Source of the DNA: Tabrizicola sp.
GTDB lineage: Bacteria; Pseudomonadota; Alphaproteobacteria; Rhodobacterales; Rhodobacteraceae
DNA length: 63,976 nt
Direction: 5' to 3'
NCBI RefSeq assembly: GCF_016792905.1
Contig: NZ_JAEULP010000035.1
Location: forward strand, 1-63,976
In this document: one piece after another, positions 3,085 through 57,421 of the stretch
How positions within the stretch are numbered: position 1 is the stretch's first letter
How the letters are laid out: every line of letters starts with the position of its first letter
Made by a program: the position numbers and the translations under genes
The notes under the pieces: model-generated
Database searches by the model: none
The model's input: only the letters and a program-made list of their open reading frames with translations
Told to the model about the DNA's origin: nothing

Positions 3085-3147
3085 CTGTCCACGCAGGACA
3101 GGATTTTGAATGGCGTCAAATCAATGGTTTGCTCGTGGTCATTTACC
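3085..3147 (+). repeat. Dispersed post-stop repeat, copy A
   Basis: First of four copies of a ~61-nt element. It opens with CTGTCCACGCAGGACAG, an imperfect form of the 17-nt palindrome found in the other copies, followed by a conserved tail containing AAATCAATGGTTTGCTCG and ending near CATTTAC. It begins one base after the TAA stop of the alpha-glucosidase. Confidence 0.8.
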
Positions 3148-3161
3148 AGGGGTCAACCACA

Positions 3162-3269
3162 CTGGACCTGTGCCACCGTTGCCGACGCTTGCCTGGACCT
3201 ATGGCTTCGGCCAATCTGGACCTGCGCCGCAGCCGTGCCAGGACATACGCCTGACCGGTAGCCTGGACC
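3162..3269 (+). promoter_or_regulatory. Direct repeats CTGGACC, TauR/MocR-like operator
   Basis: The heptamer CTGGACC occurs at 3162, 3193, 3216 and 3263, all in the same orientation, in the 198-nt region before the acetyltransferase gene. The published TauR (GntR/MocR family) box in Rhodobacter is a direct repeat of the form CTGGACYTAA, so a MocR-type regulator is the best guess. No such regulator gene is in the window. Confidence 0.5.
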
Positions 3270-3281
3270 ATGAGGACGCGA

Positions 3282-3959
3282 ATGACCGAAGACCTGTCGC
3301 ACTGGACCCCGCGCCCGCGCCCCGAGCGCACCGTGCAGGAGGGCCGCTTCGTGCGGATCGAGCCCTTGGACCCCGCCCGGCATCTGGAAGGCTTGTTCCA
3401 GGAAACCGCCATCGCCGATACCGAGGCCGACCGCCGCTTCACCTGGCTGTTCGAGACCCCGCCCGCCAGCCGCGACGTCCTGGGGCAGTGGATGGAAAAG
3501 GTCGCGGTCAGTCCCGACCCGCTGTTCTTCGCCCTGATCGACAAGGCCAGCGGGCGCGTCGCGGGACGGCAGTCGCTGATGAGGATCGACCCGAACTTCG
3601 GCGTGATCGAGATCGGCAACATCTACTGGGGACCGACCATCGCCCGCAAACCGGCGGCGACCGAGGCGCTGTATCTCGCGGCCCGGCATGTCTTCGACGA
3701 CCTCGGCTACCGCCGTTTCGAATGGAAGTGCAACAACCTGAACGAGCCGTCGAAGAAAGCCGCGCTTCGGTTCGGCTTCCAGCACGAAGGCGTGTTCCGG
3801 CAGCATATGGTGGTCAAGGGCCTGAACCGCGATACCGCCTGGTTCGCGATGATCGACAAGGACTGGCCAGCACTCCGCGCAGGCTACGAGGCCTGGCTTG
3901 CACCGGAAAACTTCGATGCCAACGGGCAGCAGAAGCGGCGGCTTGAAGACTGCCGGTAG
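3282..3959 (+). CDS. GNAT family N-acetyltransferase
   Basis: A 225-residue acetyltransferase of the RimJ/RimL-like GNAT group that acetylates amino groups using acetyl-CoA. Visible features are the N-terminal GRFVRIEPLDPARH, the central IGNIYWGP strand, and the C-terminal EWKCNNLNEPSKKAALRFGFQHEGVFRQ, the usual acetyl-CoA-binding end of the fold. An ATG lies at 3270, but AGGACG sits seven bases before the ATG at 3282, so the latter is preferred. It faces the lactonase gene convergently. Its promoter region carries four CTGGACC repeats, and GNAT genes are often partners of MocR regulators. Confidence 0.85.
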   Translation: MTEDLSHWTPRPRPERTVQEGRFVRIEPLDPARHLEGLFQETAIADTEADRRFTWLFETPPASRDVLGQWMEKVAVSPDPLFFALIDKASGRVAGRQSLMRIDPNFGVIEIGNIYWGPTIARKPAATEALYLAARHVFDDLGYRRFEWKCNNLNEPSKKAALRFGFQHEGVFRQHMVVKGLNRDTAWFAMIDKDWPALRAGYEAWLAPENFDANGQQKRRLEDCR

Positions 3960-4067
3960 GGTGGGCATGCCTCGCACACGCGACGCAAGACGCCGGACGA
4001 AATGCCCGAACTGCACGCCCTCTGCCGTCGCACCACCCTGTCTCGGGCCAGCGGCCGGGGCCGGGCC

Positions 4068-4904
4068 TCAGGCAATGACCCGGGGCTCGGCAAGACCCCT
4101 GGCCACGCCGGGGAAGGCGAAGAGCTGGCCGGAGGCGGGATGCCGGGCGCGGGCCTCGGCGTCCATGTGCTCCAGCGCGGTGGTGACGAACAGGGTGGAG
4201 AGGTCGGCGCCCCCGAAAGCCGGGCACGAGGCATGTGGCGCGTCGGGGGTTTCCACGGCCTCCAGGAAGACGCCGTCAGGGCCATAGCAGGCGACGCGCC
4301 CCGCGCCCCATTGCGCGTTCCAGAACCGCCCCTCGGCGTCGATGACCGCCCCGTCGGGGTTCAATCCCGCCCGGTCGAGGTCAAGCCAGACATGCGGCTC
4401 GCCCCTGGGCCAGCCCTGTGCGTCAAGCGCGACCTTCATCACCTGCCCCGTGGCGGTGTCGGCGAAATGCGCGGCAGCACCGTCCTCGGTGAAGCAGATT
4501 GCGTTCGGGATGGTGATCCCGGGATACAGCTGGCGCAACTCGCCCCTGTACCAGCGCCAGATCGCGCCCACGCCCTTCTCGGTCTTCTTCCCCATCGTGC
4601 CGAACCAGAAGCCCCCCTGCCGGTCGGCCCGGCCATCGTTCGACCGCGTGACTGCGGTTCCGACGCTGGCAACCGGGCTGTGCGACCCGGTCGTCAAGTC
4701 AAAGCGGAGAAGCCCGGTTTCCGAAGCGATCAGCAACTCGTCACGGGCCATCCAGCCCGCGGCCGAGACATAGTGGGCGAAGGTCCAGGACTGCGCGGCA
4801 GAATGCAGGGTGCGGTTCAGGATGTCGAACCAGAACAGCTCCTCCCGCAGGGGGTGCCAGAGCGCGCCTTCGCCCAGTTCGCAGGGGCGGGTGTCGAAGA
4901 TCAT
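4068..4904 (-). CDS. SMP-30/gluconolactonase family lactonase
   Basis: A 278-residue six-bladed propeller lactonase, expected to open a sugar lactone (probably galactono-1,4-lactone given the neighbours). SMP-30 landmarks: the metal-binding Glu in GEGALWH near residue 12, [18 protein letters not shown] in the middle and [16 protein letters not shown] towards the end. It is the last gene of the galactose operon and its ATG overlaps the aldolase TGA by four bases (ATGA at 4901), which suggests translational coupling. Confidence 0.85.
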
Positions 4905-5506
4905 GGAAAGACCTCGTCATAAGCCGCGACAATGGCGGCGGCCTTGGTGGCAATCCCGGCAGTGGAGAGGCCGGGGGTGTAAAGCGCGGTGCCGATGCCG
5001 AAACCGTTCGCCCCGGCGCGGGCCCAATCGGCGAAGTTCGCCGGTCCTGCGCCGCCGACGGCATAGACCGGCAGGTCTTTCGGCAACACGGCGCGGATCG
5101 CCTTCAGGCCGTCGGGTCCAAGCAGGTTGCCCGGGAAAAGCTTCAGCCCGGTCGCGCCCGCCTTGATCGCGGCAAAGCATTCGGTGGGGGTCATCACCCC
5201 GGGCCAGGAGTCCATCCCGGCAGCGCGGGTGGCGGCGATGACCTCGGCGTCGGCATTGGGCGAGACGACAAGGCTGCCCCCCGCCGCCTTCACCTGCGCG
5301 ACTTCCGAGACAGTCAGCACCGTTCCCGCGCCGATCTCGGCCCCGGGAACGGCAGCGACCATCGCGGTGATCGAGGCGAAAGGGTCGGGCGAGTTCAGCG
5401 GCACCTCGATCCTTGTGATCCCGGCGGCGACCAGCGCCCGGGCGGCGTCGGCGGCTTCGGCGGGCGTGATGCCGCGCAGGATGGCGATGATGTTGCGATG
5501 GGTCAT
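4901..5506 (-). CDS. dgoA: 2-dehydro-3-deoxy-6-phosphogalactonate aldolase
   Basis: A 201-residue class I aldolase of the KDPG/KDPGal family that splits 2-keto-3-deoxy-6-phosphogalactonate into pyruvate and glyceraldehyde 3-phosphate. RGITPAEA and [10 protein letters not shown] at the N-terminus, GTVLT in the middle and the Schiff-base lysine motif [11 protein letters not shown] are all visible. The length fits the family. It lies between dgoK and the lactonase with four-base overlaps on both sides, which favours the galactonate rather than the gluconate substrate. Confidence 0.9.
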
Positions 5507-6414
5507 CTGGCGGCCTCGCTTTCGGGCGCAAGCGCGGCAAGGCCCGCGAGCGTGCAGTCGGTGGCATTCATCCGCTCTGCCGCGATCCCTTGGGCGGCAA
5601 GGGCGCGGGCATAGGCCGCGGAAAGCTTCTCGGCGCCCACCAGCGTCACCCGCTGGCCAAGCCAGTAGGGTTTCGCCCCCGCCAACTCGGTCCCGATCAG
5701 AAGGCCGGACAGCCGGGCGCGGGCGGCATCGGGGGAAAGGCCCGCGATCAGCCCCTCGGCCCGCAGCGAAAAAAGCCGCGCGCCAAGGCGTTCGGGGCGG
5801 GACAGGGCATCCGACACGCCGGTGTCAAAGGCCGCATCGTCCCGGCCCGTCGCGCCCTGCATCCCGTGGCGCAGGACCGAGGCTTCGGAAAGAAGCGCGA
5901 ACAGCTCGCCCGTCATGAAGGTCTGGAAGCTGACGACCTCGCCCGCGCTGACCTGCGCCCATTTCGAATGGGTGCCGGGCAGGCACAGGACGCCGTCGTA
6001 GCCGGGCAGCAGGCGCAGCACACCGGCGATCTGGGTTTCCTCGCCGCGCATGACGTCGGCGGGTCTGGCCTGCATCAGGCCGGGCGCGATGGAAACGGCA
6101 AGGCGCGGGTCGGTGGTGGGCGCGGCGATCAGGCCACCCCGGTCAAGCGGCGGACAGGGGACGCTGCGATAGGGTGCCTCGACCCAGCCCTGGCGGCTGC
6201 CGACCATGCCGCAGGCCACGACCGGGGGTTTGCGCTCCAGCCAAGGCCCGATCAGCCGCAGAAGCGCAGGCTCGAACCCGTCGCGGGCAAGCTTGCCCAT
6301 ACCTTCGGGAGAGTCCGCCTCGGCCAGCACGGTGCCATCCGCCGCCATGGCCCAGGCGCGCAGGTTCGAGGTGCCCCAGTCGACGGCGATCCAGGCGGGA
6401 GAAAGCTGGGTCAT
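5503..6414 (-). CDS. dgoK: 2-dehydro-3-deoxygalactonokinase
   Basis: A 303-residue sugar-acid kinase that phosphorylates 2-keto-3-deoxygalactonate. The N-terminal [15 protein letters not shown] is the ATP-binding start of the DgoK fold; [13 protein letters not shown] and LPGTHSKWA are family motifs. The open frame extends further upstream, but the family start [14 protein letters not shown] and a four-base overlap with the upstream SDR stop fix the start at 6414. Confidence 0.92.
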
Positions 6415-7178
6415 CCGGAAATGTACCCCCCGTCCAGCACCAGGGTTTGCGAGGTCATCATCCGGGATGCGTTGGAGGCAAGGAACAGCACGGTTCCGGC
6501 CACATCCCCGGGCTGGATCGGATCGGGCAGGCATTGCCGCGCCAGATGGTTCGCCAGCGCCTCGGGCGTGACCCACATCTCCTTCTGCCGCTCGGTCAGC
6601 ACCCAGCCGGGGGCCACGGCATTCACCCGGATCCGGTCCGGCCCGAATTCGCGGGCCAGCGTCCGGGTCAGGCCGACGATGCCGGCATTGGCGGTGATGT
6701 AGGCGGCATAGCCGGTATCGGCCATCATGAAGCTGATCGAGGAGAAGTTGATGATCGAGCCCCCGCCCGCCGCCTGCATGCCGGGGATCACCGACTGGCA
6801 GGCGAAGAAATAGGACCGCAGGTTCACGTTGATCGACCAGTCCCAGAAGGTCTCGTCGGTCTTCAGCGTCTCGTGCCGCTGGTCGTTCGCCGCGTTGTTC
6901 ACCAGAACGGTGATCGGACCATGCACCCGCGCGGCGGTCGACAGGGTCAGTTGCAGCTGGTCCGTCACCGAGATGTCGCAGGGCAGGAACAGCGGGCGGT
7001 TGCCGGTCGCCTGTTCCATGGCATCGCAGAAGGCCGTGGCGTCCGAGCGCTGGCAGAACGCGACCTTCGCGCCCTGGCGCAGGAAGGCCTCGGTCAGCGC
7101 AGCACCAATGCCCGATCCGCCGCCGGTGATGAAAACCGACTGGCCCTTGAGGTCCGGGAAGCTTGCCACACTGTCCAT
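6411..7178 (-). CDS. SDR sugar 1-dehydrogenase, catalytic Lys replaced by Asn
   Basis: A 255-residue short-chain dehydrogenase, first gene of the galactose operon and therefore a candidate NAD(P)-dependent galactose 1-dehydrogenase. The nucleotide-binding TGGGSGIG, the VNNAANDQRH segment and the C-terminal LDGGYISG are clear and resemble the Caulobacter xylose dehydrogenase group. The catalytic YxxxK reads YITAN, codons TAC ATC ACC GCC AAT, so lysine is replaced by asparagine. The fold is intact, so this may be a real subfamily or an inactive enzyme. Start chosen at ATG 7178 behind AGGAAGGA. Confidence 0.82.
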   Translation of the reverse strand: MDSVASFPDLKGQSVFITGGGSGIGAALTEAFLRQGAKVAFCQRSDATAFCDAMEQATGNRPLFLPCDISVTDQLQLTLSTAARVHGPITVLVNNAANDQRHETLKTDETFWDWSINVNLRSYFFACQSVIPGMQAAGGGSIINFSSISFMMADTGYAAYITANAGIVGLTRTLAREFGPDRIRVNAVAPGWVLTERQKEMWVTPEALANHLARQCLPDPIQPGDVAGTVLFLASNASRMMTSQTLVLDGGYISG

Positions 7179-7267
7179 CTGCCCGCCGTCCTTCCTGTCG
7201 CCAGTACAATCCTAACGGGACCGACGGCCACTGGCCACGATTCCCGCAGGGCTCGCCGTCGTACCAC

Positions 7268-7307
7268 GGTTTCATTATTTGAAACCAAGTCTTGAATAAT
7301 GGAAACT
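7268..7307. promoter_or_regulatory. IclR-type operator between SDR and iclR genes
   Basis: GGTTTCATTATTTGAAACC at 7268-7286 is a perfect inverted repeat with seven-base arms. A second, imperfect copy (on the minus strand GTTTCCATTATTCAAG) follows at 7291-7307. The site lies in the middle of the divergent intergenic region and fits IclR-family operators built on GTTTCA/TGAAAC arms, so it probably controls both directions. Confidence 0.7.
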
Positions 7308-7360
7308 ATGTCGGCTATTCTTGACCCTGTCAACGACGGCATTGGCAAGGGGTGCGCGGG

Positions 7361-8173
7361 ATGGTGGCAGGGGGACATGCGGATGGCACGGTCGGCAAGG
7401 CGCTTGAGGTGCTGGACCTGGTGGCAAGCCATGGCCGCCCGCTGCGCTTCTCCGATCTGCTGGTCCGGTCGGATTTCCCGAAGGCGACGCTTTACCGCCT
7501 GCTGCAAACCCTGACGCATCAGGGAATGCTGGACCATGATCCCGAAACCGGCAACTATGCTGCGGGGCTGCGGCTGGTCCGGCTGGCGCATGCGGCCTGG
7601 GCGCACTCCTCGCTGGCGCCGATCGCGCGACCCTTTCTGGATGATCTTGCGGCCCGGACGGGCGAGACGATCCATCTGGCGCAGCTGGATCAAGGGCAGG
7701 TCCTCTATGTCGACAAGCGCAATGCAGCGCAGCCGGTCGAGATGTTCGCCCAGGCCGGAAAGGTCGGCCCCGCCTACTGCACCGGGGTTGGCAAGGCGAT
7801 GCTGGCCTGGCTTGCGCCCGAGGCGCTGGAAACCGCGCTGGCGCGGCAGTCGTTCCACCGCCACACCGCGCAGACCCTGGACAACCGCGAGACGCTTTTG
7901 GCCGAACTGGCGGCCATCCGGGCCCGTGGCCATGCCTGGGACCGCGAGGAGCACGAGCCGGGTATCATCTGCTGCGCCGTGCCGATTCTTTCGGGCTCCG
8001 GCCGGGTGCTGGGCGGGCTGTCGGTGACATCGACCACGACCCGCACGACGCTGGAGGCGCTGGGCGCCCTGACGCCGATGATCGGGGAAATCGCGGCGAA
8101 GATCGCGGCCGAGGCGGAAAGCTGGCGCTTTCCGGACGAGGCTGCGGTCAGGGACGGTGCGGGTCCGCGGTGA
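7361..8173 (+). CDS. IclR family transcriptional regulator
   Basis: A 270-residue IclR regulator with an N-terminal winged helix (about residues 10-70, including LVRSDFPKATLYRLLQTLTHQGML) and a C-terminal ligand-binding domain (ARPFLDDLAARTGETIHLAQLD through GGLSVTSTTTRTT). It is divergent from the galactose operon, with a palindromic operator between, so it most likely represses that operon until a sugar-acid intermediate binds. A GTG at 7352 is in frame, but AAGGGG at 7348 is correctly spaced for the ATG at 7361. Confidence 0.88.
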   Translation: MVAGGHADGTVGKALEVLDLVASHGRPLRFSDLLVRSDFPKATLYRLLQTLTHQGMLDHDPETGNYAAGLRLVRLAHAAWAHSSLAPIARPFLDDLAARTGETIHLAQLDQGQVLYVDKRNAAQPVEMFAQAGKVGPAYCTGVGKAMLAWLAPEALETALARQSFHRHTAQTLDNRETLLAELAAIRARGHAWDREEHEPGIICCAVPILSGSGRVLGGLSVTSTTTRTTLEALGALTPMIGEIAAKIAAEAESWRFPDEAAVRDGAGPR

Positions 8174-8253
8174 ACGCTGGCTATCGACGTCATCGCTTGC
8201 TCCGCCACGATGAGAAGGCGAAGCCCCACGAGGAGCCATGTGTTAAGATTTCC

Positions 8254-8314
8254 TGAATGCCCGCGCCCAACCCATTGATTCCAAAGGGTCGGAAAATCTG
8301 TCCACCGTGGACAG
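8254..8314 (-). repeat. Dispersed post-stop repeat, copy B
   Basis: Second copy of the ~61-nt element, on the minus strand. The perfect palindrome CTGTCCACCGTGGACAG occupies 8298-8314, one base after the trxB TGA. The tail (minus strand ATTTTCC, then AATCAATGGGTTG, ending CATTCA) runs down to 8254. There is nothing else recognisable between trxB and the iclR stop. Confidence 0.85.
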
Positions 8315-8315
8315 G

Positions 8316-9254
8316 TCAGTGCCCGGCGAGGAACTTCTCGGCATCCAAGGCCGCCATGCAGCCCATCCCGGCGCTGGTCACGGCCTGCCGGTAGATGTGG
8401 TCGGTCAGGTCGCCCGCCGCAAAGACTCCGGGGATCGCCGTCCGGGTCGATCCGGGTTCGACGACGACATAACCGCCGGAATGCAGCGGAAGCTGGTCCT
8501 TGACCAGTTCCGACGCCGGGGCATGGCCGATCGCGACGAAGAACCCCGCGCAGGGCACATCGGTCTCGGCCCCGGTCTTCACGTTGCGGACCTTGACGGC
8601 AGTGACGCCCAACGGGGTTTCGGTGCCCAGAACCTCGGTCACTTCGCTGTCCCAGATCACGCTGATCTTCGGGTTCTTGAACAGGCGGTCCTGCATGATC
8701 TTTTCGGCCCGGAAGCTGTCGCGGCGGTGCACCACGGTGACTTTCGACGCGAAGTTGGTCAGGAACAGCGCTTCCTCGACGGCGGTATTCCCGCCCCCGA
8801 TCACCACCACTTCCTTGCCCCGGTAGAAGAACCCGTCACAGGTCGCGCAGGCGGAAACCCCGAAGCCCTTGAACTTTTCTTCGCTGGGCAGCCCCAGCCA
8901 TTTCGCCTGCGCCCCGGTCGCAAGGATCACGGCATCGGAAGTGTAGGTGGTGCCACTGTCGGCGGTCGCGGTGAAGGGGCGCTTCGACAGGTCGAGCGCG
9001 GTGATATAGTCCGAGATCACCTCGGCCCCCATCGCCTTGGCGTGTTCTTCCATCCGGACCATCAGGTCGGGGCCCTGCACGGTATGATCGCCGGGCCAGT
9101 TCTCGACATCGGTGGTGATGGTCAGCTGGCCGCCGGGTTGCAGGCCCTGGATCAGGATCGGCTCCAGCATGGCGCGGGCGGAATAGACGGCGGCGGTATA
9201 GCCCGCAGGGCCGGAACCGATGATCAGAACCTTGGTATGCCGCGTCTCGCCCAT
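8316..9254 (-). CDS. trxB: Thioredoxin reductase
   Basis: A 312-residue FAD flavoprotein that passes electrons from NADPH to thioredoxin. Seen are the FAD motif [12 protein letters not shown] near residue 10, the redox-active CATCDGFF (CxxC) near residue 135, the NADPH motif [10 protein letters not shown] and the C-terminal [10 protein letters not shown]. Two adjacent ATGs at 9257 and 9254 could serve; the GGGGGG ribosome site is better spaced for 9254. It is divergent from the Lrp-type regulator, and repeat copy B follows directly after the stop. Confidence 0.95.
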
Positions 9255-9424
9255 CATCGCCCCCCTGGATGCCGGACCCCGATATAGCCACCCGTGACGG
9301 GGGCGGAAAGCCCCTGCATGACGGGGTTGCACGGAACGCCGTGGATCGTTTTCTTGCGTGCTGTTGAAATATTATTGCGCAAGCGGGCCCCCGCGCGTAA
9401 GTAAGGCCCCAGAACGGAGGCACC

Positions 9425-9925: not shown

Positions 9926-9928
9926 TCC

Positions 9929-41853: not shown

Positions 41854-41883
41854 GTCCCGCCTCAACCCAAAGGTTAAGTCCGC

Positions 41884-41945
41884 GTAAATGCGCGAGACCA
41901 ACCCATTGATTCCATTGCGTCCGATTTTCTGTCCACCGTGGACAG
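41884..41945 (-). repeat. Dispersed post-stop repeat, copy C
   Basis: Third copy, on the minus strand. Palindrome CTGTCCACCGTGGACAG at 41929-41945, one base after the FAH gene stop; its tail holds AATCAATGGGTTG and reaches CATTTAC at 41884. Confidence 0.85.
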
Positions 41946-41946: not shown

Positions 41947-42624
41947 TCAGGCGATGGTCACGCTCGCCGACTGCAACCCCTCGATTTCCACCTTGCAGGT
42001 GTCGCCCCGATTCAAGGGGCCCACCCCCGCCGGGGTACCGGTGAAGATCAGGTCCCCCGGCGACAGGCTGACCATCTGCGACAGCGCCGCAATGATCGAG
42101 GCCGGGGTCCAGATCATCTCTTTCGTCGAGGCTTCCTGCCGCACCGCCCCGTTCACCGAACAGCGCAGCCGCGCCTCCGGCAGCGGTCCCTGCCGGATCG
42201 CCCCCACCACCGCCGACTTGTCGAACCCCTTCGCCATGTCCCAGGGCCGCCGCCGTTCCTTCGCCTCGGCCTGCAGGTCGCGCCGGGTCAGGTCATTGCC
42301 CGCCGCGTGCCCCCAGATCATCGCCTCGGCCCGCTCCTCGGATACCATCGCGCCGCCCTTGCCGATGGCCACCACCAGCTCCCCCTCGTGGTGCAGGTTC
42401 TGGGTCGCAGGCGGGTAGGGGATGCGCGAACCGGATTCGACCACCGCATCGGCGGGCTTCGTGAAGAAGAACGGCGCCTCCTTCTCGGGGTCGCCCCCCA
42501 TCTCCTTGGTATGCTCGGCATAGTTCCGGCCCACGCAGAAGATGCGGCGGACCGGGAAGCGTTCAGCGCGGCCGGTGACGGGAAGGGTCACGGTCGGCAG
42601 GGCAGGGAAGACCAGAGCGACCAT
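41947..42624 (-). CDS. Fumarylacetoacetate hydrolase family protein
   Basis: A 225-residue FAH-fold hydrolase or decarboxylase. Family marks: RRIFCVGRNYAEHTKEMGGD, FFFTKPADAVV, the metal-binding HHEGELVVAIG and FTGTPAGVGPL near the end. The short form fits fumarylpyruvate or acylpyruvate hydrolases. GGGAGG precedes ATG 42624. It follows the DD-carboxypeptidase by four bases, so they share an operon though their roles seem unrelated. Confidence 0.88.
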   Translation of the reverse strand: MVALVFPALPTVTLPVTGRAERFPVRRIFCVGRNYAEHTKEMGGDPEKEAPFFFTKPADAVVESGSRIPYPPATQNLHHEGELVVAIGKGGAMVSEERAEAMIWGHAAGNDLTRRDLQAEAKERRRPWDMAKGFDKSAVVGAIRQGPLPEARLRCSVNGAVRQEASTKEMIWTPASIIAALSQMVSLSPGDLIFTGTPAGVGPLNRGDTCKVEIEGLQSASVTIA

Positions 42625-42628
42625 CGTC

Positions 42629-44620
42629 TCAACCTCCCACGGTTTCACAAGGCACGGCACGGGCCGTCAGACGGCGGCAGGCAAGTTCGGCCTGCTCCTC
42701 GGTCAGACCCATGAAGCTCGCCCGCCAGGCCCCGCCCGACTGGGTCGTCTTCCGCAGCCCGTCGTTCAGCGTGGCGCTTTCGGCCAAGGCGGTTTTCAGG
42801 AGCGCCTTTTCGGCATCGTAGCGCGACGGGTATTCGCCGACGTTCACGCCAAAATGGCGCCCGCCCGAGGTCGACAGCACGACGACGACTTCCTCGTCCT
42901 CCTCGACGGCGGGCTCGGTGGTTTCGACCGCATCGAAGATCGGAGCGCTGCGTCTGGTGGCCGGAACCACCGCAGCCAGGTCCACCGGCGCAGGCGCGAC
43001 GGTTGCCGGTGCGGCAACGGTTTCGACTTCGGTCACGTCGGCGAGAAGGGTCTCGGGCTCGACCGCCGCGACTTCGGTGCCGGGGTCGGTGACGACAAGC
43101 TCCGGTTCGGGCGCGGCTTCGGCGACGACAACTTCCTCCACCGCAGGGGCCTCGGGCTCGAGCACCGGCTCGATGGTCGCGAGCTGGACCGTCATCCCCG
43201 CGGGCCGCGCCTTCGGCTTCATGCCGGCCAGGGCCGGATCGGGCTCGGCCACCGGGGCGCCTTCTTCAGCGGGTGTCAGGGCCGCCACCTGCGTCTCGGC
43301 GGGCGCGGCGCCAGTGGCGAGCGCAGCGGCCTGGGACTCGAAGCTGCCTTGCGCCGACGGATCGACCGCAGGTTCGGTAGCGGCGACCAGCACTTCGGCA
43401 TCGGCAAGGGGCACGGCTTCTTCAGATGCGGCCTTAGGCACGTCGGCTGCGGCGACGGCAATCTCCGGTGCAGCCTGCTCAACTTCGGCAACTGCGGTTC
43501 CTGGGTCGGCCATTGCCTCGGCCTGGAATTCCAGCGTGCCCTCCGGGGCGGGTTCGGCAGTCGCCTCGGCCAGCGCGCCGTCGATCCCCTCGGCCATGGC
43601 AATCGCGACCTCGTCGGTGACGGTCGGCATCGCCGGGCGCGCTTTCGGGCGGGGCGAGGTCTTCACCTCTCCCGACACCCGGACGATCTTGCCAGCGCCG
43701 CCCTCGGCATCGATCTCGTCGATCCCGGTCTCGACGGAAGCGATCAACGCGTCGTCCAGCGGCGCAGCCTGCGGCGGCTGTTCGGCCACGTTGTTCTTGG
43801 CCTTGCCGAAGCCGAGGTCCATCAACTCGGCCATCTTCGCATTGCGGTTCGCGCTGGAGGTGCCGCCGAATACCGTCGCAATGATGTGCTTGTTGCCGCG
43901 GTGCGCCGAAGCGGTGAGGTTAAACCCGGCAGGCGCGGTGTAGCCGGTCTTGATCCCGTCCGCGCCGTCATAGGCGTCCAGGAAGCGCGAGTTCGTGTTC
44001 GTCACGGTCGCGATTCCCGCATCCGCCGTGCGGCGCGAGAAGATGTGGTAGTACTGCGGGAAATCGTAGAACAGATGGCGGCCCAGCGTGTTCATGTCGC
44101 GGGCGGTCGACAGATGGCCGTCAGCGGTCAGGCCGTTGGCGTTCTTGAAGGTGGTGTTGTCCATCCCCAACTGCCGCGCCGTGCGGGTCATCCGCTTGGC
44201 GAAGGTCACATGGTCGCCGCCGATGTGGTCGCCAAGGGCGGCGGCGGCGTCGTTGGCCGACTTGATCGCCGCGGCGCGGATCAGGTAGCGCACCGCGATC
44301 TTCTGGCCCGGCTTGAGGCCAAGGCGCGAGGGCGGTTGCGAGGCGGCGTATTTCGTTACCGTGACCTTGGTGTCGAGCGAGAGCCGCCCGGCCTCGATCT
44401 CCTGGAAGACGATGTAGAGCGTCATCATCTTGGTGAGCGACGCCGGATGCAGCCGCGCGTCGGCGTTCTTTTCGTAGAGCACCTCGCCCGTGCGCCCGTC
44501 CATCACGATGGCCGCGAAGGGCGCGGCCTGAAGGGGCGACGTCACCACGATGGTGCTGACGACAAATGCCAGAAAAATAGCGTTGAAAATCCGCCCGAGA
44601 AGCGATGCCACGTCGCCCAC
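42629..44620 (-). CDS. D-alanyl-D-alanine carboxypeptidase with long acidic linker and SPOR-like end
   Basis: A 663-residue S11 peptidase (PBP5/6 type), about 200 residues longer than usual. Signal peptide ending SPLQA; active-site serine motif HPASLTKMM, KSANDAA as SxN and DGIKTGYTAPAG as KTG. Residues about 280-575 are an Ala/Glu/Pro/Val-rich low-complexity linker, then a C-terminal SPOR-like domain (GVNVGEYPSRYDAEKALLKTAL) that may bind denuded septal glycan. The start codon is GTG at 44620, or a second GTG at 44611 with a better ribosome site. Confidence 0.88.
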   Translation of the reverse strand: MGDVASLLGRIFNAIFLAFVVSTIVVTSPLQAAPFAAIVMDGRTGEVLYEKNADARLHPASLTKMMTLYIVFQEIEAGRLSLDTKVTVTKYAASQPPSRLGLKPGQKIAVRYLIRAAAIKSANDAAAALGDHIGGDHVTFAKRMTRTARQLGMDNTTFKNANGLTADGHLSTARDMNTLGRHLFYDFPQYYHIFSRRTADAGIATVTNTNSRFLDAYDGADGIKTGYTAPAGFNLTASAHRGNKHIIATVFGGTSSANRNAKMAELMDLGFGKAKNNVAEQPPQAAPLDDALIASVETGIDEIDAEGGAGKIVRVSGEVKTSPRPKARPAMPTVTDEVAIAMAEGIDGALAEATAEPAPEGTLEFQAEAMADPGTAVAEVEQAAPEIAVAAADVPKAASEEAVPLADAEVLVAATEPAVDPSAQGSFESQAAALATGAAPAETQVAALTPAEEGAPVAEPDPALAGMKPKARPAGMTVQLATIEPVLEPEAPAVEEVVVAEAAPEPELVVTDPGTEVAAVEPETLLADVTEVETVAAPATVAPAPVDLAAVVPATRRSAPIFDAVETTEPAVEEDEEVVVVLSTSGGRHFGVNVGEYPSRYDAEKALLKTALAESATLNDGLRKTTQSGGAWRASFMGLTEEQAELACRRLTARAVPCETVGG

Positions 44621-50517: not shown

Positions 50518-50520
50518 GGG

Positions 50521-51996: not shown

Positions 51997-51997
51997 C

Positions 51998-52168
51998 TCA
52001 TCCCCTGTGTTCTTCTTCGGTCATGGCCTCAAGCTCGCCTTCGCGCGAGGAGGTCAGGACGTCTTCGGAATAGCTGGAGTCGGTCTTCAGCCAGTCCACG
52101 ACCATGTAAAGCCCGAACAGCGCCGACAGCGCCCAGGCCGCGTATTCAAGCCAGTTCCACAGATCCAT
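51998..52168 (-). CDS. Small single-helix membrane protein, 56 aa
   Basis: A 56-residue protein MDLWNWLEYAAWALSALFGL... with one helix up to about residue 27 and an acidic tail (SREGELEAMTEEEHRG). It lies one base upstream of the permease start, so it is cotranslated. No domain recognised; a permease subunit is the simplest guess. Confidence 0.75.
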   Translation of the reverse strand: MDLWNWLEYAAWALSALFGLYMVVDWLKTDSSYSEDVLTSSREGELEAMTEEEHRG

Positions 52169-52177
52169 CGCGGCCCC

Positions 52178-52558: not shown

Positions 52559-52560
52559 CG

Positions 52561-52848
52561 TCAGTCCCTCCTGCCTTTGGATTCGTCGAGGAACTTGATG
52601 TCGAGGCCGTACATGAAGTCGCGGTCCTCGCGGTAGTGGCGCAGCATCGCCAGGATCGCGGCGGTGTTGAACACAAGCACGATGGCCCCCGCGATGAGCA
52701 GCAGCGTTCGCGCCCCGCCGGTCGGCGCCAGGTTCCAGGTCGCGATGGCGACGAAGATGATGGCGAACCAGAGGCCAATGACAAACGCCCATGCCACCAT
52801 GACATCGCGCCTGTGCATCGCCTCAATCCGCTGATTGAGATCTCCCAC
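52561..52848 (-). CDS. Small two-helix membrane protein, 95 aa (GTG start)
   Basis: A 95-residue protein with helices VMVAWAFVIGLWFAIIFVAIATW and TLLLIAGAIVLVFNTAAILAML and a charged C-terminus. The start codon is GTG, behind AGGGAGGGAA. First gene of the permease operon, 224 bases from the divergent mgsA start. Confidence 0.75.
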   Translation of the reverse strand: MGDLNQRIEAMHRRDVMVAWAFVIGLWFAIIFVAIATWNLAPTGGARTLLLIAGAIVLVFNTAAILAMLRHYREDRDFMYGLDIKFLDESKGRRD

Positions 52849-52910
52849 AGTTCCCTCCCTTGGGCGCTTGGTTTTACCCGCGTGACGTGGCCCCGACGTC
52901 TTTCCCCACG

Positions 52911-52927
52911 CGGAAAAAGTTTTTCCG
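52911..52927. promoter_or_regulatory. Palindrome between permease and mgs operons
   Basis: CGGAAAAAGTTTTTCCG, a perfect palindrome with eight-base arms around one central G. Its place in the divergent region suggests a shared operator for both methylamine-related operons. The regulator is unknown. Confidence 0.6.
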
Positions 52928-52944
52928 AAGGGAAAGCTACCTGC

Positions 52945-52955
52945 GACAGTCTGTC
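52945..52955. promoter_or_regulatory. Short palindrome upstream of mgsA
   Basis: GACAGTCTGTC, five-base arms around one T, 18 bases from the preceding palindrome. It may be part of the same control region; weak on its own. Confidence 0.35.
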
Positions 52956-53072
52956 AAGGAAAACCGCCATCCCGGAGCAGAATTTCCCGACAGGTGAAAA
53001 ATGTTTCTTACCAGTTGATAGGCGGAAAGGACGGTGCTAGCGTCAACCGAACGACACGAAGGAGGCGAATCC

Positions 53073-53969
53073 ATGTGCGGAATCGTAGGGCTGTTCCTGA
53101 AGGACCCGAAGCTGGAGCCGAAGCTTGGCGCCATGCTGACGGACATGCTGATCACCATGACCGACCGCGGCCCCGACAGCGCGGGCATCGCGATCTACGG
53201 CGGGGCGAAGGATGGGTTGGGCAAGATCACCATCCAGTCGGCCAATCCCGACAAGGATTTCAAGAACCTGGACGGCGACCTGCATGACGCCATCGGCCAG
53301 CCGGTCACGATCCTGGTGAAGTCGACCCATGCGGTGCTGGAAGTTCCGCTTGACCAGATGGCGGCCGCACGATCTGCGCTGGCGCATCTGCGCCCGACCG
53401 TGAAGGTCATGAGCGTCGGCGACGCCATCGAGATCTTCAAGGAAGTCGGCCTGCCCAAGGATGTGGCCTCGCGCTTCGACGTGTCGAAGATGAAGGGCAC
53501 CCACGGCATCGGCCACACCCGGATGGCCACCGAATCCGCCGTCACCACGATGGGCGCGCACCCGTTCTCGACCGGATCGGACCAGTGCCTGGTCCACAAC
53601 GGCTCGCTGTCGAACCATAACGGCCTGCGGCGCGAGCTGATCCGCCTGGGCAAGACCTTCGAGACGCAGAACGACACCGAGGTTGCCGCCGCCTATGTCA
53701 GCCGGAAGCTGGAAGAGGGGCAAAGCCTGGGTCAGGCGCTGGAATCCGGCCTCGATGACCTTGACGGCTTCTACACCTTTGTCGTCGGCACCAAGAACGG
53801 CTTCGGCGTCGTCCGCGACCCGATCGCCTGCAAGCCCGCCGTGATGGCCGAGACCGACCAGTATGTTGCCTTCGGGTCGGAATACCGGGCGCTGGTAAAC
53901 CTGCCGGGGATCGAGGATGCCCGCGTCTGGGAACCGGAACCCGCCACCGTCTACTTCTGGGAGCGTTGA
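53073..53969 (+). CDS. mgsA: N-methylglutamate synthase subunit A (glutamine amidotransferase class II)
   Basis: A 298-residue Ntn-hydrolase glutaminase domain like the N-terminus of glutamate synthase. The family start MCGIVG places the catalytic Cys2, and RGPDSAGIA, GHTRMATES and VHNGSLSNH are seen. GGAGG precedes ATG 53073; the 13 residues upstream are dropped. With MgsB and MgsC it moves methylamine from gamma-glutamylmethylamide onto a 2-oxoglutarate-derived acceptor to give N-methylglutamate. Confidence 0.93.
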   Translation: MCGIVGLFLKDPKLEPKLGAMLTDMLITMTDRGPDSAGIAIYGGAKDGLGKITIQSANPDKDFKNLDGDLHDAIGQPVTILVKSTHAVLEVPLDQMAAARSALAHLRPTVKVMSVGDAIEIFKEVGLPKDVASRFDVSKMKGTHGIGHTRMATESAVTTMGAHPFSTGSDQCLVHNGSLSNHNGLRRELIRLGKTFETQNDTEVAAAYVSRKLEEGQSLGQALESGLDDLDGFYTFVVGTKNGFGVVRDPIACKPAVMAETDQYVAFGSEYRALVNLPGIEDARVWEPEPATVYFWER

Positions 53970-53973
53970 GAGA

Positions 53974-54663
53974 ATGCAGAGCTTCGATCTGGGCAAAGAG
54001 GGCCTGCGCGCCTTGAACAGCGCGCTGCATGGCCTGAAAGGCCAGACCAACATGACCGACTGGGAGGTCGTCAACCCCAAGGGCGCCCACGCCATCGCCG
54101 CCGGGGTCGACGCCCCGGTGGACATCACCGTGCGCGGCTCGACCGGATACTACTGCGCGGGCATGAACAAGCAGGCGACGATCCGCATCAAGGGTTCGGC
54201 GGGTCCGGGCGTGGCCGAAAACATGATGAGCGGCACCGTCATCATCGACGGCAACGCCAGCCAATATGCCGGGGCGACCGGGCGCGGCGGGCTTCTGGTC
54301 ATCAAGGGCAATGCCTCCAGCCGCTGCGGCGTGTCGATGAAGGGCATCGACATCGTGGTGCATGGCAACATCGGCCATATGTCGGCCTTCATGGCGCAGT
54401 CGGGCAACCTGGTGGTGCTGGGCGACGCGGGCGACGCGCTGGGCGACTCGCTCTATGAGGCGCGGCTTTTCGTGCGCGGCTCTGTGAAGTCACTGGGCGC
54501 GGATTGCATCGAGAAGGAGATGCGGCCCGAGCATTATGCGCTTCTGGAAGATCTGCTGAAGCGGGGCGAGGCGGACGGCAAGGCCAAGCCGGAAGAGTTC
54601 AAGCGCTACGGCTCTGCCCGGAAGCTTTACAACTTCAACATCGACAACGCAGCGGCATACTGA
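53974..54663 (+). CDS. mgsB: N-methylglutamate synthase subunit B (GXGXG domain)
   Basis: A 229-residue right-handed beta-helix protein like the C-terminal GltB domain. Repeated glycine turns are visible (VRGSTGYYCAGMNKQATIRIKGSAGPGVAENMMSG, IDGNASQYAGATGRGG, VHGNIGHMSAF). It starts four bases after mgsA. Confidence 0.92.
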   Translation: MQSFDLGKEGLRALNSALHGLKGQTNMTDWEVVNPKGAHAIAAGVDAPVDITVRGSTGYYCAGMNKQATIRIKGSAGPGVAENMMSGTVIIDGNASQYAGATGRGGLLVIKGNASSRCGVSMKGIDIVVHGNIGHMSAFMAQSGNLVVLGDAGDALGDSLYEARLFVRGSVKSLGADCIEKEMRPEHYALLEDLLKRGEADGKAKPEEFKRYGSARKLYNFNIDNAAAY

Positions 54664-54670
54664 GGCAAAG

Positions 54671-55999
54671 ATGAGCGATTTTCCCCATACCCCGCCGCGC
54701 TATTCGGCCACCTTCACCCCGGCGGTGAACGCCGAGATCCGCCGCGCTGCCGCCTCCGGCATCTACGACATCCGTGGCGGCGGCACCAAGCGCCACCTGC
54801 CGCATTTCGACGATCTCCTGTTCCTTGGCGCCTCGATCAGCCGCTACCCGCTGGAAGGCTACCGCGAGAAATGCGCGACCGATGTCTGGCTGGGCACCCG
54901 CTTCGCCAAGAAGCCGATCCATCTGGACATTCCGGTGACGATCGCCGGGATGTCGTTCGGCGCGCTCTCCGGCCCGGCGAAGGAAGCCCTGGGCCGTGGC
55001 GCCAGCGCGGCGGGCACCTCGACCACCACCGGCGACGGCGGCATGACCGAGGAGGAGCGTGGGCATTCCAAGACGCTGGTCTATCAATACCTGCCCAGCC
55101 GCTATGGCATGAACCCCGACGACCTGCGGCGCTGCGATGCGATCGAGGTCGTGGTCGGCCAGGGCGCGAAGCCGGGCGGCGGCGGGATGCTACTGGGGCA
55201 GAAGATTTCCGACCGTGTCGCGATGATGCGGAACCTGCCCAAGGGGATCGACCAGCGCTCGGCCTGCCGTCACCCGGACTGGACCGGGCCGGACGATCTT
55301 GAGATCAAGATCCACGAGCTGCGCGAGATCACCGATTGGGAAAAGCCGATCTACGTCAAGGTCGGCGGCGCACGGCCCTACTATGACACCGCACTTGCAG
55401 TGAAGGCCGGGGCGGACGTGGTCGTGCTGGACGGCATGCAGGGCGGCACGGCGGCGACGCAGGACGTGTTCATCGAACATGTCGGCATGCCGATCCTGGC
55501 CTGCATTCCGCAAGCCGTGAAGGCGCTGCAGGACCTTGGGATGCATCGCAAGGTGCAGCTGATTGTCTCGGGCGGCATCCGGTCGGGTGCGGACGTGGCC
55601 AAGGCGATGGCGCTGGGGGCAGATGCGGTTGCCATCGGCACCGCTGCGCTGATCGCGCTGGGCGACAACGATCCGAAGCTGGAAGCCGAATACCAGAAGC
55701 TGCAGACCACGGCGGATGCCTATGACGACTGGCATGAGGGCAAAGACCCGGCGGGGATCACCACCCAGGATCCGGAACTGTTCAAGCGCTTCGACCCGGT
55801 GCTGGGCGGTCGTCGCCTGAAGAATTACCTCAAGGTGATGACGCTGGAGGCGCAGACCATCGCGCGGGCCTGCGGCAAGAACCACCTGCACAACCTGGAA
55901 CCCGAGGACCTGTGCTCGCTGACCATCGAGGCGGCGGCTATGGCGGGGGTTCCTCTGGCGGGGACCAGCTGGATACCGGGACGGAACGGCGGCTTCTAG
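54671..55999 (+). CDS. mgsC: N-methylglutamate synthase subunit C (FMN-binding glutamate synthase domain)
   Basis: A 442-residue protein like the central FMN-binding domain of glutamate synthase: PVTIAGMSFGALSGPAKEALGRGASAAGTSTTTGDGGM, PGGGGMLLGQKISDRVA and LIVSGGIRSGADVAKAMALGADAVAIGTAAL. A C-terminal CGKNHLHNLEPEDLC could be part of an Fe-S site, but this is not certain. Third subunit, seven bases after mgsB. Confidence 0.93.
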   Translation: MSDFPHTPPRYSATFTPAVNAEIRRAAASGIYDIRGGGTKRHLPHFDDLLFLGASISRYPLEGYREKCATDVWLGTRFAKKPIHLDIPVTIAGMSFGALSGPAKEALGRGASAAGTSTTTGDGGMTEEERGHSKTLVYQYLPSRYGMNPDDLRRCDAIEVVVGQGAKPGGGGMLLGQKISDRVAMMRNLPKGIDQRSACRHPDWTGPDDLEIKIHELREITDWEKPIYVKVGGARPYYDTALAVKAGADVVVLDGMQGGTAATQDVFIEHVGMPILACIPQAVKALQDLGMHRKVQLIVSGGIRSGADVAKAMALGADAVAIGTAALIALGDNDPKLEAEYQKLQTTADAYDDWHEGKDPAGITTQDPELFKRFDPVLGGRRLKNYLKVMTLEAQTIARACGKNHLHNLEPEDLCSLTIEAAAMAGVPLAGTSWIPGRNGGF

Positions 56000-56049
56000 G
56001 CCGCCGTTTCCCGATCATCAATCAAGAAAAGACCAAGGGAGTTACAGCA

Positions 56050-57357
56050 ATGGCGAAGGACCTTGCCAAATGGGCCAAGGATAAGGGCGTCAAGTATTTC
56101 ATGATTTCCTACACCGACCTGTTCGGGTCGCAGCGGGCCAAGCTGGTGCCGACGCAGGCGATCAACGACATGGCGGTGGATGGCGCCGGGTTCGCCGGGT
56201 TCGCGACCTGGCTGGACCTGACGCCTGCGCACCCCGACCTGATGGCGGTGCCGGACCCGGACAGTGTGATCCAGCTGCCCTGGAAGAAGGACGTGGCCTG
56301 GGTCGCGGCGCGGGCGACGATGGAGGAAAAGCTCGTCGACCAGGCCCCCCGCAACGTGCTGGAGCGGCTGGTGGGCGAGGCGGCGAAGGAAGGCCTGCGG
56401 GTGAAGACCGGGGTCGAGCCCGAATTCTTCATCCTGAACGCCGATGGGTCGGGCGTCTCGGACGCCTACGACACCGCCGAGAAGCCCTGCTACGACCAGC
56501 AGGCGGTGATGCGGCGCTATGACGTGATCAGCGAGATCTGCGACTACATGCTGGAGCTGGGCTGGGAGGCCTACCAGAACGACCACGAGGACGCGATCGG
56601 CCAGTTCGAGATGAACTGGAAATACGACGATGTCCTGCAAACCGCAGACAAGCATTCGTTCTTCAAGTTCATGACCAAGTCGATCGCCGAGAAGCACGGC
56701 TTCCGCGCGACCTTCATGCCGAAGCCGTTCAAGGGGCTGACGGGGTCGGGCTGCCACGCCCATATCTCGGTCTGGACGCTGGACGGCAAGACCAACGCCT
56801 TCGCCGACAAGTCGAAGGAGCTGGGGCTGTCGGACCAGGGGCGGCACTTCCTGGGCGGGATCATGAAGCATGCCAGCGCGCTGGCGGCGATCTGCAACCC
56901 GACGGTGAACAGCTACAAGCGGATCAACGCGCCGCGGACGTCCTCGGGGGCGACCTGGGCGCCGAACACCGTGACCTGGACCGGCAACAACCGGACCCAT
57001 ATGGTCCGCGTGCCGGGCCCGGGACGGTTCGAGCTGCGGTTGCCCGATGGCGCGGCGAACCCCTACCTGATGCAGGCGGTGATCCTGGCGGCGGGGCTGG
57101 ACGGGGTGCGGACCAAGGCGGACCCGGGGCGGCGCTACGATATCGACATGTATCAGGACGGCCACAAGGTGAAGGGGGCGCCGAAGCTGCCCTTGAACCT
57201 GCTCGACGCACTGCGGGAGTATGACAAGGACAAGACCCTGAAGTCGATGATGGGGGACGAGTTCTCGGCCGCCTTCCTGAAGCTGAAGCACAAGGAATGG
57301 AACGACTATTGCAGCCATTTCTCGGCCTGGGAGACGCAGACGACGCTGGACATCTGA
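56050..57357 (+). CDS. gmaS: Gamma-glutamylmethylamide synthetase
   Basis: A 435-residue enzyme of the glutamine synthetase III-like group that joins methylamine to glutamate with ATP. MAKDLAKWAKDKGVKYFMISYTDLFG is the GmaS N-terminus; VEPEFFIL, GSGCHAHISVW and PGRFELRLPDGAANPYL are GS active-site strands. It follows mgsC by 50 bases. Repeat copy D starts three bases after its stop and a terminator follows. Confidence 0.95.
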   Translation: MAKDLAKWAKDKGVKYFMISYTDLFGSQRAKLVPTQAINDMAVDGAGFAGFATWLDLTPAHPDLMAVPDPDSVIQLPWKKDVAWVAARATMEEKLVDQAPRNVLERLVGEAAKEGLRVKTGVEPEFFILNADGSGVSDAYDTAEKPCYDQQAVMRRYDVISEICDYMLELGWEAYQNDHEDAIGQFEMNWKYDDVLQTADKHSFFKFMTKSIAEKHGFRATFMPKPFKGLTGSGCHAHISVWTLDGKTNAFADKSKELGLSDQGRHFLGGIMKHASALAAICNPTVNSYKRINAPRTSSGATWAPNTVTWTGNNRTHMVRVPGPGRFELRLPDGAANPYLMQAVILAAGLDGVRTKADPGRRYDIDMYQDGHKVKGAPKLPLNLLDALREYDKDKTLKSMMGDEFSAAFLKLKHKEWNDYCSHFSAWETQTTLDI

Positions 57358-57360
57358 TTT

Positions 57361-57421
57361 CTGTCCACGGTGGACAGAATCTTGGAGGCAGCAAAATCAA
57401 TAACTTGCTCGCGGACATTCA
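57361..57421 (+). repeat. Dispersed post-stop repeat, copy D
   Basis: Fourth copy, three bases after the gmaS TGA. Palindrome CTGTCCACGGTGGACAG at 57361-57377, then AAAATCAATAACTTGCTCG and CATTCA at the end. Confidence 0.85.

Follow-up and report, generated by a model that had tools for sequence, protein, structure and literature searches.

The DNA analysed here, referred to as the window, is a stretch of 63,976 nucleotides from Tabrizicola sp. (contig NZ_JAEULP010000035.1), and it raises the question of why the same repeat should lie directly behind the stop codons of four unrelated genes. In an earlier note the repeat was described as a ~61-nt element always placed after a stop, and a 3'-UTR element acting in the RNA was considered plausible.

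Anatomy of the four copies in the window

The four copies have the places, strands and gaps to the upstream stop that had been claimed for them, as judged by our own gene calls; the length of ~61 nt has to be revised, since alignment gives an element of about 76 nt, ending in TTAAC beyond the earlier boundary. Copy A (3085..3160, forward strand, 59.7 bits) is separated by 1 nt from the stop of an alpha-glucosidase-like gene (1473..3083, forward), which does not reach the cut-off of any of the 25 NCBIfam families shown. Copy B (8239..8314, reverse strand, 89.2 bits) lies 1 nt behind trxB (8316..9257, reverse; TIGR01292 over cut-off), copy C (41870..41945, reverse, 75.2 bits) 1 nt behind a fumarylacetoacetate hydrolase (FAH)-family gene (41947..42648, reverse; below cut-offs), and copy D (57361..57436, forward, 79.4 bits) 3 nt behind gmaS, encoding a type III glutamate--ammonia ligase (56050..57357, forward; TIGR03105 over cut-off). 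The names trxB and gmaS are therefore secured by curated cut-offs, but those of the other two genes hold at family level only.

Each element begins with a palindrome, on the strand of its copy, which pattern search and folding place at 8298..8314 in copy B (CTGTCCACGGTGGACAG), 41929..41945 in copy C and 57361..57377 in copy D, and which is partly degraded in copy A (CTGTCCACGCAGGACAG). In each of the four copies the tail that follows contains a match to the IHF consensus WATCAANNNNTTR, with cores at 3119..3131 in copy A (AATCAATGGTTTG), 8268..8280 in copy B and 41899..41911 in copy C (both AATCAATGGGTTG), and 57395..57407 in copy D (AATCAATAACTTG). Toward its end stands a box, located by alignment (in copy A also from the sequence), that reads TTTA-N7-TCAAC in copy A (3142..3157), TTCA-N7-TTAAC in copies B (8242..8257) and D (57418..57433), and TTTA-N7-TTAAC in copy C (41873..41888). 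The repetition of the palindrome in the window is real, with four matches at up to three mismatches vs 0.31 expected and none of 100 shuffles reaching four. The core AATCAATGGGTTG alone, at up to three mismatches, shows no excess in the window (11 vs 10.19 expected) and is distinctive there only in combination with the remaining element. Whole-window scans with the element model and with a tail-only model each recover exactly these four places; the former also picks up three palindrome halves of these copies in reverse, besides a single match at E 0.82. No Rfam family matches the window at its gathering score, and a search of 181 nt around one copy gave a single chance-level match (E 2.6).

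Placement and composition across the genome

At least 129 full-length copies are present in the genome (matches to the element model R1 at E <= 0.002), a lower bound from 150 scored candidates out of 1362, and the exact palindrome 17-mer occurs 43 times, against 0 for the reversed-pattern control. With gene boundaries called by a small script of our own, 0 of the 129 copies fall within a called gene. A same-strand gene adjoins the palindrome side of 99 copies, 83 of which begin within 10 nt past its stop; in 28 copies the gene on that side is on the opposite strand. Convergent contexts account for 56 copies and divergent ones for five. In the convergent contexts the palindrome side has a stop within 10 nt in 47 cases, compared with 11 for the tail side (Wilcoxon p = 4.5e-8), and position beside stops is thus strongly non-random in this genome. 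Between two same-strand genes there are 22 antisense and 32 sense copies, numbers that do not differ significantly (p = 0.22). The rule that the repeat always follows a stop describes all four window copies, but as the counts on either strand make plain it weakens to a preference genome-wide. Random placement and lack of conservation of tail or palindrome, the outcomes that had been named as refuting, were looked for genome-wide and in relatives, and neither was found. It would seem that the repeat marks gene ends across the family and is not an accident of four genes.

Judged from its letters, the conserved tail resembles a DNA site of the IHF type. The strict consensus is found in 60/129 genome copies and its WW form, WWTCAANNNNTTR, in 92/129, the core being absent by a looser rule in 29/129; a survey of the core kept the 183 of 219 copies in which it is recognisable. 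Across the 43 rows of alignment A1 (42 of the 43 exact copies, with the odd copy L007 omitted, plus window copy A) columns C38, A39, A40, T45, T46 and G47 are invariant and T37 is conserved in at least 90%. The box, TTNA-N7-TYAA in its general form, starts 10 nt behind the core. Both IHF subunit genes, ihfA and ihfB, are encoded in the genome (TIGR00987 and TIGR00988 over cut-off).

Covariation and codon positions were analysed in 39 of the 43 exact copies, omitting three A-centre copies and L007. The four top covarying column pairs are neighbours within columns 19-21, 30-31 and 35-36 and swap AA for TT; these columns form an A/T tract in DNA. Because the covariation is such swapping and not base pairing, the tail is read as a DNA-level element, and RNA structure beyond the hairpin was rejected. 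A coding element was likewise rejected, the variability ignoring codon positions in every forward frame. One forward frame is open in 36/39 copies. When a four-base A/T tract within 8 nt behind the palindrome is required, T-tracts are found in 62, A-tracts in 22 and mixed tracts in seven of the 129 copies, and 38 have none.

The palindrome is far more uniform than the tail, with a mean identity of 96% vs 52% for the tail outside the core (98/129 copies). In this genome the uniformity is to some extent selected for, as exact palindromes were the basis of R1. A check independent of the palindrome comes from the tail-only model R2 (150 of 840 own-genome candidates scored) and from three genera used in no model, described below; R2 yielded at least 119 matches, of which 115 are known copies and four are weak, and 97 of these 115 carry a perfect TGTCCAC-N-GTGGACA.

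The tail is also adjoined by an insertion sequence, which by homology appears to be a relative of the IS30 family, at one fixed point in 8/8 places found in the genome. The possibility that the element is itself an insertion-sequence end was rejected, as the eight ends share letters and the adjoining tails differ. This also provides an apparent relative of the IS30 family whose choice of target is very strict.

Conservation in other Rhodobacteraceae

Tail and palindrome occur together in at least 17 Rhodobacteraceae genera, from scans in which at most 19 and 14 candidates were scored per genome; the tail-only scan takes in weak single matches, among them G084, G413 and G468, and those in G255 and G447 have no palindrome. 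Among isolates, Tabrizicola aquatica RCRI19 and T. flagellatus SYSU G03088 have the element. About ten palindrome types were found, some common to several genera. They are mostly uniform within a genome, their arms are able to form a hairpin (folding was usable for 7/12 stretches, leaving out L361, L351, L377, L379 and L376), and arm differences between genera compensate. The distance between GTCC and GGAC is 5, 6, 7 or 8 bp, varying by genus. Identity of TGTCCAC..GTGGACA with a DnaA box or parS was dropped, as the letters are not kept in other genera. In three genera outside all models, found by tail alone, 19/20 copies have an exact inverted repeat (arms of 6 bp or more) that ends 16-19 nt ahead of the core, vs 0.65/20 expected from shuffles. 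Genus G304 departs from the usual placement: of seven copies examined, five lack a same-strand gene beside the palindrome, and in the remaining two the distance to a stop is 51 and 82 nt.

Orthologous ends of trxB and gmaS show the core kept in place where the hairpin often differs. Among 55 such loci, located by protein alone and with our own excluded, the box is present at 15 vs 0.25 expected from shuffles, and in all 15 the core stands 10 nt ahead of it, with WWTCAANNNNTTR exact in 11, with one difference in three and with two in one. With our own loci included, WWTCAANNNNTTR occurs within 90 nt past the stop at 9/30 trxB and 13/27 gmaS loci, 0.03 being expected for each from shuffles; these, like the shuffles for the 55 loci and for the inverted repeats, preserve base composition only. 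A recognisable element is absent from most trxB and gmaS orthologues, so it must be dispensable at a given gene. Other repeats were seen at the trxB or gmaS ends of several orthologues and, by eye, at the trxB ends of some sister species. From other Tabrizicola-type genomes, 42 copies were chosen by palindrome and core, and 30 of them could be matched by their flanks: 26 have the same gene end and direction as a copy here by printed coordinates, one falls short, another is displaced by 54 nt and two are reversed. Since 26/42 adjoin the same gene end, many copies are old and have been inherited in place.

Candidate roles and known counterparts

We consider it somewhat better than an even bet (probability about 0.55) that the element is an IHF-site-bearing palindromic interspersed repeat that marks gene ends, the Rhodobacteraceae counterpart of RIB/BIME-1, working in three steps. 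The palindrome beside the stop would be transcribed and form a hairpin, about 6-8 bp long, which would end the upstream mRNA or shield its end, by intrinsic termination in some T-tract copies and as a 3' barrier in others. IHF would bind the WATCAANNNNTTR-like core, 16-19 nt past the palindrome, and bend the DNA, the A/T tract behind the palindrome perhaps serving as its second contact. The bend might then set a boundary that limits read-through or the spread of supercoils between neighbouring, often convergent, genes, and the TTNA-N7-TYAA box, with its CtrA-like spacing, could be read by a second protein. Counting against this explanation are the limitation of strict IHF matches to 60/129 copies, the 29 coreless copies, the 22 antisense copies between same-strand genes and the position of G304 copies away from stops. 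A more tentative possibility is a gene-end address in two parts, in which an IHF-like core and box form a platform common to at least 17 Rhodobacteraceae genera, and the palindromes, which differ between lineages, co-evolve with a trans-acting reader. Such a sequence-specific partner, protein or RNA, would act with IHF and keep the palindromes uniform; copying of whole elements fails to explain that uniformity, because the tails are ~52% and the palindromes 96% identical and because inheritance in place accounts for many copies.

Four other explanations have to be weighed. That a transposase spread the element as a selfish repeat of the REP-like or MITE-like kind, which survives in 3' flanks as the least harmful place and whose IHF site is a part of its own (past) mobility, is rather unlikely. 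The many intergenic copies, the palindrome types that vary by genus and look like successive waves, the other repeats noted by eye at trxB ends of sister species and the description of REPs as a 3'-flank kind of repeat (PMC3733652) would all suit it, but it does not sit well with copies inherited at the same gene ends, with core and box preserved at orthologous sites, or with a tail so much less alike than the palindrome, unlike recent whole-unit copying. A RAYT-driven REP in particular was rejected: Y1_Tnp (PF01797) has no match in our own assembly, which is 93% complete, and is present in 5/14 control genomes, including E. coli and Caulobacter. A 3'-UTR element that acts in the RNA, whether through stability, protein binding or sRNA release as in the earlier note or by stalling ribosomes at the stop, we regard as unlikely. 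It draws on the adjacency to stops, on a hairpin preserved through compensating changes while its loop length varies, and on a report that E. coli REPs up to 15 nt from a stop stall ribosomes (PMC12306157). The capacity to form a hairpin is supported, but the IHF-type tail, whose conservation suits a DNA site, and the AA/TT covariation do not fit it, and the 28 antisense-side copies together with the one genus whose copies do not adjoin stops argue against a role in RNA alone.

It is improbable that the family consists of plain intrinsic terminators, hairpin and U-tract past the stop with the remainder as passenger. At 31/84 element ends vs 9/142 control ends the stop has a terminator-like site no more than 60 nt away, and T-tracts follow 62/129 palindromes; but 60/129 copies have an A-tract or none, core and box are conserved beyond any U-tract, antisense copies exist, and a terminator-like site distinct from the element lies at 57495..57516 behind gmaS (0.5 expected by chance). 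Only 26/84 stop-adjacent hairpins satisfy the terminator rule (GC-rich hairpin plus U-tract), from which it follows that termination is not the general role. We are similarly doubtful that the palindrome is the operator of a dimeric DNA-binding protein and the element an operator joined to an IHF site. Palindrome letters that stay uniform in most genomes examined while tails drift do suggest a sequence-specific reader, but the varying GTCC-GGAC distance suits hairpin loops more than a rigid dimer, and a symmetric site should be indifferent to gene orientation.

The repeat, with its IHF-like site at gene ends, matters because the roles of REPs were still called unclear in 2025 (PMC12306157), and a conserved case of IHF plus palindrome in another bacterial class than that of E. 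coli would offer a natural swap experiment, one IHF-like platform with different palindromes by genus. The partner could then be sought among genes whose presence or protein sequence tracks the palindrome type, and insulation of neighbours by gene-end IHF becomes testable.

Searches of the open-licence PMC literature turned up no account of a repeat of this kind from Rhodobacteraceae. The GTAG and CGTC REP super-families are described as high-copy, mostly intergenic repeats near ORF 3' ends, between convergent or unidirectional genes (PMC3733652), all of which applies here, and some palindromes open with CGTC or TGTC. By that description REPs of CGTC families 1-4 have a CGTC head, a stem of 8-9 bp that opens with A/T pairs, a CCA tail and mostly head-to-head dimers, whereas the present element, by eye, lacks A/T first pairs, is mostly single and has a conserved tail of ~60 nt. 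Br-REP1 and Br-REP2 of Bradyrhizobium are likewise alphaproteobacterial palindromic repeats, found in 3'-UTRs and turning over quickly among related species; their letters differ, Br-REP1 is a three-hairpin unit, and an IHF tail does not figure in the available part of its description (PMC5082802). The box shares its spacing with the full CtrA site, given as TTAA-N7-TTAA (PMC6180460), with a degenerate first half whose third base is mostly C, and it lies behind genes, unlike the CtrA site near a promoter -35. REPs have also been described as insertion-sequence targets (PMC1525189); the repeat here is one too, although of a putative IS30-family relative and at one fixed tail point.

The nearest known kind is probably RIB/BIME-1 of E. 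coli, to which the element would be a counterpart in kind and not in sequence. Repeats of IHF site plus palindrome at gene ends were reportedly treated in E. coli by Boccard and Prentki in 1993. RIB/BIME-1 is described as two opposed REPs with an inter-REP sequence that interacts with IHF (PMC2817692). Like it, the element is a repeated extragenic unit, in which a putative IHF site, assigned by its consensus only, stands beside a palindrome, and it is placed at the 3' ends of transcription units (83/99 same-strand copies, G304 excepted). Unlike it, the element has, in the aligned copies, a single flanking palindrome, has unrelated letters and a palindrome type that switches between genera, and adds the TTNA-N7-TYAA box at a fixed spacing.

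Copies of the repeat and their place next to stop codons

The earlier note had reported a repeat of ~61 nt. Its four copies in the window, A (3085..3160, +), B (8239..8314, -), C (41870..41945, -) and D (57361..57436, +), are confirmed, and their palindromes begin 1, 1, 1 and 3 nt past the stops of an alpha-glucosidase-like gene (1473-3083, +), trxB (8316-9257, -), a FAH-family gene (41947-42648, -) and gmaS (56050-57357, +). The repeat is real, but the length given was too short, as the aligned copies extend beyond TTAAC to 76 nt. With up to three mismatches the palindrome matches the window 4 times against 0.31 expected, and the tail's core alone shows no excess (11 against 10.19 at the same tolerance); the element model (R1) and a tail-only model (R2), each scanned over the whole window, returned the same four places. 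Folding energies of these copies are -9.2 to -9.4 kcal/mol.

The assembly of this genome (3.79 Mb, 91 contigs) contains 43 exact palindromes, and none were found with a reversed-pattern control. R1 (E <= 0.002; 150 of 1362 candidates scored) yielded at least 129 full-length copies, 108 of them with a perfect TGTCCAC-N-GTGGACA. The sequence-only R2 (E <= 0.1; 150 of 840 candidates scored) yielded at least 119 matches, 115 of which coincide with R1 copies (97 with a perfect palindrome); the remaining four, outside R1 copies, have E values of 0.003 to 0.07. Tail and palindrome form one unit, occurring together.

None of the 129 copies lies inside a gene as called by our own gene caller. The palindrome-side gene is on the same strand in 99 of the 127 copies that have a gene there, and in 83 of these 99 the palindrome starts within 10 nt of its stop, with an overlap in ten (1 nt in nine of them, 23 nt in the other). 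Contexts are convergent in 56 copies, unidirectional sense in 32, unidirectional antisense in 22 and divergent in 5, a gene call being missing on the tail side in 12 and on the palindrome side in 2. Where the context is convergent, the palindrome side has a stop within 10 nt in 47 copies, compared with 11 for the tail side (Wilcoxon p = 4.5e-8). The suggestion that the repeat is a 3'-UTR RNA element agrees with these 83 stop-adjacent copies, but the sense and antisense counts in unidirectional gaps do not differ significantly (p = 0.22), and this argues against a role carried strictly by the RNA. Several convergent pairs have the stop codon of the opposite gene within the tail, as a reverse-strand TGA or TAA out of TTCA and TTAA; negative tail-side gene distances occur, for example, at C44:22266, C65:14455, C57:42575 and C62:36226. 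At one locus (L180) two copies, C41:73389 (+) and C41:73679 (-), face each other, one at the stop of each convergent gene.

Elsewhere, a same-strand gene is present for 23 of 30 copies in genome G215, and 22 of these 23 begin at most 24 nt from its stop; 6 of 8 copies in G074 lie no more than 10 nt from a stop, 6 of 8 in G329 lie 4-26 nt past a same-strand stop, and all five in G417 lie 9-65 nt past one. Overlap with a called gene was seen in 1 of 90 copies in other genomes. A position always after a stop, true of the window, does not hold throughout this genome, and it fails in G304, where the palindrome side faces an opposite-strand gene in 5 of 7 copies and the remaining two are 51 and 82 nt away from a stop. 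Stop-adjacency is usual in most genomes seen but does not define the element.

The tail as a putative IHF site and insertion target

The core fits the IHF consensus WATCAANNNNTTR, as quoted in PMC10380432, in all four window copies. Across the genome the strict fit holds in 60 of 129 copies and a form with A or T as second base (WW) in 92, while a looser rule finds no core in 29; C38, A39, A40, T45, T46 and G47 are invariant in 43 aligned copies. The genome encodes ihfA and ihfB, both above NCBIfam cut-offs, and judged by sequence the tail resembles an IHF site. Ten nt past the core begins a TTNA-N7-TYAA box, spaced as in the full CtrA site described in PMC6180460; CtrA is only a lead, because the third base of the box is mostly C here. 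The top covariation within the element consists of AA/TT and AAA/TTT swaps between neighbouring positions, which would be compatible with an A/T tract in duplex DNA but not with a U-tract or a paired RNA.

Eight copies, at the ends of contigs C3, C7, C13, C16, C56, C75, C76 and C79 (loci L001, L150, L065, L158, L187, L205, L032 and L209), run into identical foreign DNA, after which the contig ends. A search with the foreign end found 8 sites in this genome, each next to an element tail at TTAA, and 15 in six further same-genus genomes (among L400-L418). By eye, 12 of these 15 adjoin an element, whose core is degenerate in two cases, and the other three lie away from any element. A full copy of the insertion sequence was not found in this assembly. 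A relative in genome G017 (L401), among the three sites away from an element, carries the full-length gene of a 359-aa IS30-family transposase (L401:553-1632; NF033563, above cut-off); the adjoining gene resembles a phage/GTA terminase. By homology, the insertion sequence would belong to the IS30 family, with a strict target at the element tail.

Conservation of palindrome and tail among genomes

A palindrome-plus-core scan of named genomes gave 67 stretches (the window's own record perhaps not among them), all in records named Tabrizicola, Rhodobacter, Rhodobacteraceae or Rhodobacterales, or in MAGs named at Alphaproteobacteria or Pseudomonadota level. R1 matched all 25 same-genus genomes (own included; 1 to 117 matches each) and none of 16 genomes of other families. 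Within the family, with few candidates scored per genome, R1 was positive in at least 18 of 248 genomes and R2 in at least 23 of 395 (21 of 351 genera), some single R2 matches lacking the palindrome. Both parts were seen together in 17 genera, and two further genera have an imperfect palindrome. The palindrome is GTCCGAGCTCGGAC in G074 (8/8 copies), GTCCCAYGATGGGAC in G188 (6/6), GTCCCACGGTGGGAC in G087 (4/4), GTCCCACGATGGGAC in G108 (6/6), GTCCACATGTGGAC in G283 (4/4), GTCCCACGCGTGGGAC in G278 (4/4), GTCCCAYSRTGGGAC in G215 (30/30) and CCTGTGTTACAGG in G175 (3/4). Types are mixed in G001, of the window's genus, and G286; since G087 and G329 have one type in common, and G188 and G417 another, the palindrome is lineage-typical, not unique. 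Three genera outside all models were found by the tail alone; there, an exact inverted repeat with arms of at least 6 bp ends 16-19 nt ahead of the core in 19 of 20 copies (0.65 of 20 expected from shuffles). The arms co-vary, with T-A/C-G and A-T/C-G changes on both, and the GTCC-GGAC distance varies from 5 to 8 bp; a hairpin therefore fits better than a rigid dimer site.

At 55 orthologous trxB and gmaS ends, located by protein independently of the repeat and excluding our own, the tail box is present at 15 (0.25 expected from shuffles), always with a core 10 nt ahead of it (11 exact WW forms, three with one difference, one with two). Hairpin letters there often differ (e.g. CTGCCC..GGGCAG, CGCGCC..GGCGCG), some sites retaining CTGTCCACGGTGGACAG; arms of at least 5 bp lie within the first 30 nt at 9 of the 11 exact-core sites, one with a mismatch. 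By the same rule 40 of the 55 ends have no tail box, and several carry other repeats. By eye, sister species have a multi-hairpin CCGGAGCCTTTGAAGGCTCCGG type and a GGCGCCTTGCGGCGCGAAGACCTGTTCTCT type after trxB (L223, L225, L236, L238 and L241, L242, L244, L248). Of 42 distinct copies chosen by palindrome and core from other same-genus genomes, 26 abut a gene end that also bears a copy here.

Mean identity in this genome is 96% for palindromes and 52% for tails outside the core (98 of 129 copies); palindromes also exceed tails in G215, G074, G188 and G108, and hardly in G001 (68% against 61%). This is a paradox, since many copies are old and whole-element copying or conversion should even out the tails too. 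The simplest reason for uniform palindromes with drifting tails would be a putative sequence-specific reader of the palindrome; a RAYT gene was not found in this assembly.

Proposed function and nearest known system

Most weight is given to a putative boundary element at gene ends that is centred on IHF and has a hairpin which may also act in the transcript. IHF at the tail core would set a boundary between neighbouring genes, and the hairpin would act in the RNA, in part of the copies as a terminator. Of 84 element ends, 31 have a terminator-like site within 60 nt past the stop, compared with 9 of 142 other ends, so that part of the copies can use their hairpin as a terminator; a further such site at 60-200 nt occurs at 9 of 84 and 8 of 142. 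At gmaS, copy D is followed after 58 nt by a terminator-like hairpin of 9 pairs with a T-tract (57495-57516; 1 against 0.5 expected from shuffles).

In design and place the element is closest to RIB/BIME-1 of E. coli, from which it differs in its letters and in having no second palindrome.
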